Shown here: one piece after another, positions 15,660-15,931 of the stretch | How the letters are laid out: every line of letters begins with the position of its first letter | Position numbering within the stretch: the stretch's first letter is position 1 | Assembly: GCA_949524905.1 (NCBI GenBank) | Contig: CATINC010000004.1 | Span: 239,840 to 303,839, forward strand | Length of the DNA stretch: 64,000 bases | Source: Opitutia bacterium UBA7350 | Lineage (GTDB): Bacteria; Verrucomicrobiota; Verrucomicrobiia; Opitutales; Coraliomargaritaceae | Direction: 5' to 3' | Translations under genes and position numbers: made by a program | Notes under the pieces: generated by a model | What the model was told of the DNA's origin: nothing | The model's input: only the letters and a program-made list of their open reading frames with translations | The model's database searches: none

Positions 15660-15844
15660 CTCAGGTGGTGCTACCGAGGCGAAAGCCGACAACGCCACCT
15701 GACTTTCGACAGTTTATTACGCTCAGGTGGTGCTACCGAGGCGAAAGCCGATAACGCCACCTGAATTTCGACAGTTTATTACGCTCAGGTGGTGCTACCG
15801 AGGCGAACGCCGACAACGCCACCTGACTTTCAACAGTTTATTAC
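15660..15844 (+). repeat. Three tandem 62-bp hairpin repeats abutting tRNA-Leu
   Basis: Units begin at 15660, 15722 and 15784; the next period begins at 15846, one base into the tRNA. Each unit has a 10-bp stem, TCAGGTGGTG paired with CGCCACCTGA (one G-U), enclosing a small inner stem GGC-GAAA-GCC, then a 19-base leader ending GTTTATTACG. Copies differ at only a few positions; in copy 3 the inner loop changes from GAAA to GAAC, and the stem is kept. The first 13 bases of each later unit (GCTCAGGTGGTG plus the preceding C) match the tRNA 5' end, and the CGCCAC of the stem also matches the tRNA D-arm side. No coding potential. Origin and function are unknown. Confidence 0.92.
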
Positions 15845-15931
15845 GCTCAGGTGGTGAAATTGGTAGACACGCCACGTTCAGGTCGTGGTGCCTTCACGGG
15901 CATGCGGGTTCAAGTCCCGCCCTGAGTACCA
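15845..15931 (+). tRNA. tRNA-Leu (anticodon CAG)
   Basis: An 87-base class II tRNA with encoded CCA. Acceptor GCTCAGG pairs with CCTGAGT (position 1-72 is G-U). The D-arm carries AAATTGGTAGA, the anticodon stem is CCACG/CGTGG around loop TTCAGGT, the long variable arm is TGCCTTCACGGGCA, and the T-arm is GCGGG-TTCAAGT-CCCGC. It decodes CUG. The 5' end coincides with the boundary of the upstream repeat array. Confidence 0.95.

Follow-up and report, generated by a model that had tools for sequence, protein, structure and literature searches.

An array of hairpin repeats abutting a tRNA-Leu(CAG) gene in Opitutales: probable degenerate copies of a small mobile element at the 5′ side of a tRNA

The window, by which we mean the whole 64-kb stretch of DNA that was analysed, contains one tandem array, placed by Tandem Repeats Finder at 15660–15856 with a period of 62, 3.2 copies and a 95% match, and this array runs directly into a tRNA-Leu(CAG) gene at 15845–15931 on the plus strand, which is intact and CCA-encoding according to ARAGORN and an Rfam search. 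Three units are present on the same strand, with a spacing of 62 and 62 nt in a repeat search (15660–15721, 15722–15783 and 15784–15845), the final base of the third being base 1 of the tRNA, which confirms the three 62-bp tandem units reported in an earlier, sequence-only reading of the locus. Each unit opens with a block, here termed A, that has the sequence CTCAGGTGGTG and copies nt 2–12 of the tRNA (15660–15670 in unit 1, identical to 15846–15856; 15722–15732 in unit 2; 15784–15794 in unit 3). This is followed by CTA, by a core, CCGAGGCGAAAGCCGACAA (15674–15692, 15736–15754 and 15798–15816), by a strand that pairs with the first block, CGCCACCTGA, here termed A′ (15693–15702, 15755–15764 and 15817–15826), and by a 19-nt linker (15703–15721, 15765–15783 and 15827–15845), of which the last copy abuts the tRNA and has nt 1 of the tRNA as its final base. 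The sequence-only reading had treated this linker, CTTTCRACAGTTTATTACG, as a leader to every unit and to the tRNA; it does precede copies 2 and 3 and the tRNA, and is absent before copy 1.

Folding of the unit confirmed a 10-bp stem, TCAGGTGGTG/CGCCACCTGA, around the inner GGC-GAAA-GCC hairpin, at −22.1 kcal/mol and a z-score of −3.5, the pairing of A with A′ in unit 1 including one T-G wobble, and the stretch as a whole folds with a z-score of −4.9. The 19-nt core of unit 1 reads CCGA-GGC-GAAA-GCC-GACAA, while in unit 2 GATAA replaces GACAA and in unit 3 the loop is GAAC; since the three copies are distinguished by such point substitutions, a simple assembly duplication is disfavoured. The change from GAAA to GAAC had been taken as a hint of constraint at the RNA level, but it lies in the loop and is uninformative about constraint on the stem. 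Of the sequence said to be common to tRNA and units, 11–12 nt are indeed shared; the CGCCAC match is not a separate shared block, because the strand that carries it is the complement of the copied tRNA 5′ end, and the corresponding position reads ACCACC or ATCACC in relatives. The description of the units as tandem tRNA 5′ halves with a replaced middle does not hold either, as their co-linear similarity to the tRNA ends at nt 12: nothing beyond nt 1–12 is copied, the other strand of the stem is complementary to these bases, and a conserved core takes up the middle.

A TTGACA at 15624–15629 on the plus strand, 36 nt before unit 1, is a putative −35 box of the original tRNA-Leu promoter; the same hexamer is found upstream of most intact tRNA-Leu genes in the window's family, at a distance of about 44–46 nt, and a strict sigma-70 scan found no full promoter. 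The linker segment CGACAGTTTA resembles TTGACAGTTTA, the −35 region that lies between the tRNA and the element in G073 and G116 (family f8), and is probably a promoter remnant. A reading of the array as a riboswitch or T-box was dropped, as neither a terminator nor an anticodon-matching loop was seen. A genome search found no second copy of the array in its own 1.67-Mb genome, and no further core was detected in the 64-kb window or in 264 kb around about 21 tRNAs of that genome. Its other class-II tRNAs carry no copies, and the element was absent from the other fetched tRNA loci of G000.

By its sequence the array belongs to a hairpin-repeat family that spans three families of the order Opitutales and that is apparently new to the literature, as a search of open-access publications returned no paper on this repeat family or on a motif of Verrucomicrobia or of tRNA-Leu. 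Its members follow one rule, namely a copy of a tRNA end (A), a structured core (TTCCGAG-hairpin-CGACAA...) and a strand complementary to A (A′). The usual arrangement is a different one: in 134 related genomes the best tRNA-Leu loci generally consist of a TTGACA promoter and then the tRNA with nothing between, and most tRNA-Leu genes of the window's family are without the element. A similar hairpin was found upstream of tRNA-Leu in G044 and G069, both of another Opitutales family (f3), where all class-II tRNAs were read and a copy was present at one of them in G044 (GAG) and at three in G069 (CAG, GAG and UAG). A covariance model built from these and the window copy (five sequences) was run on 372 genomes of the order and recovered, in the window's own family, two tandem 119-bp units directly before tRNA-Leu(CAG) of G007, each with a TTGACA promoter. 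Pattern searches added copies before tRNA-Leu(UAG) in G006, G021 and G031, and two genomes of a third family (G116 and G073), the isoacceptor being read from the first 12–13 nt where the tRNA body is masked (G006) or the contig ends inside the tRNA (G031 and G116). All 5′ copies share an A that corresponds to the first 12 nt or so of the downstream tRNA and a CCGA-stem-GACA motif, of which G069 has a variant with GTTCAGG in place of TTCCGAG; a second stem is usual, and A′ is present except in G007. The window core lacks this second stem as well as the terminal GTTCC/GGAAC pairs of full-length cores.

The kinship of some copies rests on 20–60 nt and the number of loci is modest. Many contigs of draft metagenome-assembled genomes break at these repeats, so that copy numbers are minima and are probably underestimated in drafts. 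At loci L305, L302 and L304, the contigs of G031 and G116 stop in tRNA-Leu at a direct repeat, and G006 is masked at this point.

Across the collected copies, A matches its own tRNA at 123 of 132 positions as compared to 113.1 under permutation (p<1e-5), and the 8-nt leader before A likewise tracks its own tRNA (59/88 identities against 30.5 permuted). A′ in turn fits its own A (p 5e-5). Where A departs from the tRNA, as at A6-T in G044, C3-G in the CAG copy of G069 and A9-T in the GAG copy of G069, A′ has changed with it, which indicates that the pairing itself is kept, and pair 2 of the core stem occurs as all four Watson-Crick types (GC, CG, AT and TA). The proposal that the hairpin is under structural constraint and linked to the tRNA end was thereby borne out, with compensatory changes in relatives rather than the loop substitution of copy 3 as its support. 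Hits elsewhere served as a natural control: in an order-wide pattern search a core stem of at least 3 bp was found in 8 of 9 tRNA-Leu copies as compared to 3 of 38 other hits. The core pattern gave 24 hits in G069, of which 9 are no more than 300 bp from a tRNA (binomial p 7e-15), and a paired stem of at least 4 bp is present in 7 of the 9 tRNA-near hits against none of the 15 elsewhere (Fisher p 1e-4). Several of these searches were refined after earlier hits, and the p-values describe the collected sets and not a pre-planned test.

Searches of G069 and G103 for the core, in which the GGTGGTG prefix was not required, established that the family also occupies the 3′ side of tRNA genes. In G069 such copies lie on the opposite strand at tRNA-Cys, tRNA-Gly, tRNA-Leu(GAG), tRNA-Leu(UAG) and tRNA-Ser, with others near tRNA-Val and tRNA-Pro, and further 3′ copies occur at tRNA-Leu(CAG) of G008, tRNA-Val of G044 and tRNA-Leu(CAG) of G010. 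Downstream of tRNA-Cys on contig C14 of G069 (L363/L435) there are three tandem 170-bp units on the opposite strand, in each of which the core is combined with a terminator-typical inverted repeat and with a copy of the 3′ end of tRNA-Cys. In the duplicated 3′ cases the core follows a copy of about 12–21 nt of the antisense tRNA 3′ end, broken at or near the T-loop; the break at leucine tRNAs is GGGCGGGACTTG|TTCCGAG as compared to GGGCGGGACTTG|AACCC, that at tRNA-Cys falls slightly earlier, and the outer flank with its terminator-typical inverted repeat is also duplicated. The 3′ copies at tRNA-Gly, tRNA-Ser and tRNA-Val have a weak A′ or none.

The core is also found away from tRNAs. Its full-length form is GTTCCGAG-stem-CGACAAGACCGG-stem-ACCGGAAC, which amounts to 48 nt when inserted in genes, and putative terminal inverted repeats, GTTCC/GGAAC, are present in the full-length copies of L380, G010 and G008. 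L380 is an intergenic full-length core in G103 that from CCGAG onward matches the 19-nt core of unit 1 in the window at every base. On another contig of the same genome (C163; L434 125–145, minus strand) the core lies inside an ORF with an IS91-type zinc-binding domain, and comparison with an E. coli IS91-family transposase revealed exactly 16 extra residues at the core, in frame. A second in-frame insertion of 16 residues was found in a phosphatase-like protein on a virus-classed contig of IMG/VR (L412 7869–7898, minus strand; L423 carries the same protein), as judged against a single distant homologue from a Gordonia phage. That the core is mobile is inferred chiefly from these two independent insertions in unrelated genes, both clean, in frame and 48 nt long. 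A paired core with a variant downstream stem (CGACAACGCTGAATCC) was also noted on contig C144 of G103 (L392 336–360, plus strand), in a fetched stretch in which no tRNA was detected.

Gain and loss of the element are apparent among close relatives. The 5′ element at tRNA-Leu(UAG) of G021 is flanked by 18-nt direct repeats (ACTTTCGCTCGGGTGGTG), whereas G010, of the same genus, has an empty site at this gene, and decayed remnants were found in G014, G018, G027 and G032 of that genus and in G017 of another. Duplications at element loci vary from 18 nt to over 100 nt and did not define a clean target-site duplication, and recombination between such direct repeats would remove or multiply units, which fits the two units in G007, the three in the window and the three at tRNA-Cys. 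Evidence of the kind that could count against the sequence-only reading is mixed: most related tRNA-Leu genes are without repeats and some copies have decayed, yet intact copies elsewhere covary. Upstream of tRNA-Leu(UAG) at four loci of genus g9 (L313, L315, L336 and L339) the core has decayed and a second promoter persists, with an inverted repeat in its spacer (TTGACATCATGGTCCG..AGACCACATACATA).

Neither the window array nor five related loci matched any Rfam family, RtT included, at permissive thresholds, and blastn gave no match of the array to phage and plasmid sequences, nor of the full core to plasmids. A genome- and virus-wide search for the hairpin followed by tRNA-Leu returned one true hit, L043, from an Opitutales metagenome-assembled genome and on the same contig as G069, the other hits being chance matches in coding sequence. 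When the core pattern was run on a phylum sample of 357 genomes, hits outside the order did not pair. Covariance-model hits in G361 and G082 had no tRNA nearby and were set aside as chance; hits named R2, with E-values of 0.003–1 in G116, G007, G030 and others, had no tRNA in the surrounding 1.5 kb or so and are probably fortuitous; and viral pattern hits other than L412/L423 were unpaired.

Taken together, we consider it probable that the array is a set of tRNA-linked repeats on the 5′ side, built from degenerate copies of a small mobile element that forms hairpins and carries no gene. The core is oriented towards the tRNA in every case, in most cases an A′ complementary to the tRNA-end copy comes after it, its attachment points are fixed (after nt 12 on the 5′ side, and at or near the T-loop on the 3′ side), and a full unit carries the gene's own flank, the promoter on the 5′ side and the terminator on the 3′ side, so that an intact tRNA gene remains. 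The core would be mobile and would survive preferentially at tRNA ends, where a unit also supplies the gene end and flank, and units would be amplified or lost through recombination between direct repeats. In the window the core appears to have been shortened by loss of the second stem and the GGAA end, the promoter borne by the unit to have been reduced to the CGACAGTTTA remnant and the units to have reached three in number. With the unit promoter so reduced, the tRNA would probably depend on the outer TTGACA at 15624, from which transcription may start at about the first unit, and the hairpins would then probably be transcribed together with the tRNA, as a 5′ leader that RNase P would cut off the pre-tRNA at 15845. 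A′ may serve to stop the extra tRNA 5′ ends from pairing with the tRNA 3′ acceptor strand, and could be kept for this reason even if the leader has no function, since without A′ these ends could steal that strand. In the window's own genome the core was found only at this array, which counts against this reading in so far as mobility is not apparent there.

An alternative is that the hairpin is a functional structured RNA, that is, a small RNA or a 5′ external transcribed spacer that belongs to tRNA-Leu operons, is under selection, is freed by tRNA processing and acts in trans or on tRNA-Leu maturation. The compensatory changes that keep A and A′ paired and the covariation of the core stem are what such an RNA would display; most wobble pairs fall on the sense strand, many 5′ copies have a promoter-like TTGACA upstream, and E. 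coli offers precedents in the sponge 3′ETS-leuZ, which derives from a tRNA transcript (PMC6191717), and in three tRNA-linked repeats (TLRs) that bind Hfq/CsrA (PMC8144298). However, the 3′-side copies are on the opposite strand with a terminator-typical inverted repeat between tRNA and element, cores lie inside ORFs, close relatives show exact empty sites and decayed copies, and most tRNA-Leu genes in the family are without the element, and we therefore regard a functional RNA as improbable, albeit the best of the alternatives. Far less probable is a decoy or switch that would regulate the folding of tRNA-Leu, or its cleavage by RNase P, through competition of the extra tRNA 5′ ends for the 3′ acceptor strand. 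In silico the tRNA's own 5′ strand can be displaced by the A copies, the minimum free energy being −109.5 kcal/mol as compared to −100.6 kcal/mol with all hairpins and the cloverleaf enforced, but equilibrium folding ignores the co-transcriptional order and A′ appears to lock A. A dedicated decoy for tRNA maturation, as the sequence-only reading had suggested, is moreover disfavoured because the core also lies inside two protein genes and, on the opposite strand, at the 3′ ends of tRNAs, copies that the decoy logic leaves unexplained. Tandem duplication of the tRNA 5′ end as a purely local event, with a hairpin arisen by chance and no mobile core, would suit copies that are adjacent, nearly identical and unique in their own genome, but is strongly disfavoured and equally remote, as the same core (CCGA-stem-GACAA) is common to three families, where it stands by several other tRNAs in other genera and away from tRNAs; repeat expansion at the tRNA 5′ side, which had also been proposed, accounts for the tandem copies and is incomplete without a mobile core.

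Of the systems described so far, the E. coli TLRs come nearest. These repeats, known since 1978 and without a known function at least until recent evidence that three of them yield Hfq/CsrA-binding small RNAs, comprise 1–5 tandem units per tRNA or rRNA locus, each with 18–19 bp of the 3′ end of the gene (PMC8144298). Like the TLRs, which include the rtT RNA of tyrT (Rfam RtT), the window array consists of tandem units beside a tRNA, three in the window and one to three in relatives, and the 3′ copies of G069, G008, G010 and G044 share the TLR topology and copy a stretch of similar length (about 12–21 nt). TLRs as described are confined to the 3′ side, however, whereas the window array is on the 5′ side and copies 11–12 nt; their description includes neither a conserved hairpin core nor a self-complementary copy of the tRNA end, both of which characterize the Opitutales family, and the Opitutales core also occurs away from tRNAs. 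Similarly, 3′ETS-leuZ of E. coli is a piece of a tRNA precursor beside a leucine tRNA, made by RNase E, that pairs with RyhB/RybB (PMC6191717); the predicted transcript of the window would likewise be a piece of a tRNA precursor by a leucine tRNA, while 3′ETS-leuZ derives from the 3′ side. Rickettsia palindromic elements, the closest counterpart as regards in-frame insertion, are about 150 bp in length and are found as such insertions in protein genes (PMC10969869). With these and with MITE-like palindromes the Opitutales family shares short, gene-less, self-complementary and dispersed copies and in-frame insertions in genes, but its core is a 48-nt sequence with a three-way-junction-like fold that is strongly tied to tRNA ends and to a copy of the target. 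Dispersal and ORF insertions were seen for the family, and in the window genome this array alone was found. Integrative elements that target tRNA genes break them in the T-loop, about 18–21 bp from the 3′ end, restore the tRNA and accrete in tandem. These three features appear to be shared by the Opitutales units, which differ in being 60–170 bp long, in lacking a gene or integrase and in using the 5′ end as well.

More tentatively, and with rather less confidence than the mobile-element reading itself, we suggest that the family may represent a new class of minimal mobile elements. These would settle at fixed positions at either end of tRNA genes, always facing inward, and would produce or retain an adjacent inverted copy of the target (target-core-target complement), perhaps through snap-back synthesis that is self-primed on the terminal GTTCC/GGAAC pairing; survival of the tRNA gene would be ensured by duplication of its promoter or terminator side. 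If this snap-back geometry is true, it would represent a mobility mechanism without a clear precedent known to us. A family that uses both ends of tRNAs, with one mobile core common to different tRNAs, and that includes empty sites, decayed copies and ORF insertions, offers a testable origin for tRNA-linked repeats, which may be relics of a small element targeting tRNA ends, and cautions against taking every hairpin that copies a tRNA end for a regulatory RNA. As a separate observation on tRNA genes in these genomes, contig C40 of G044 (L088) carries tightly spaced, odd and low-scoring tRNA-like genes (Arg, Ile and a third), a cluster that is possibly of phage or plasmid origin.
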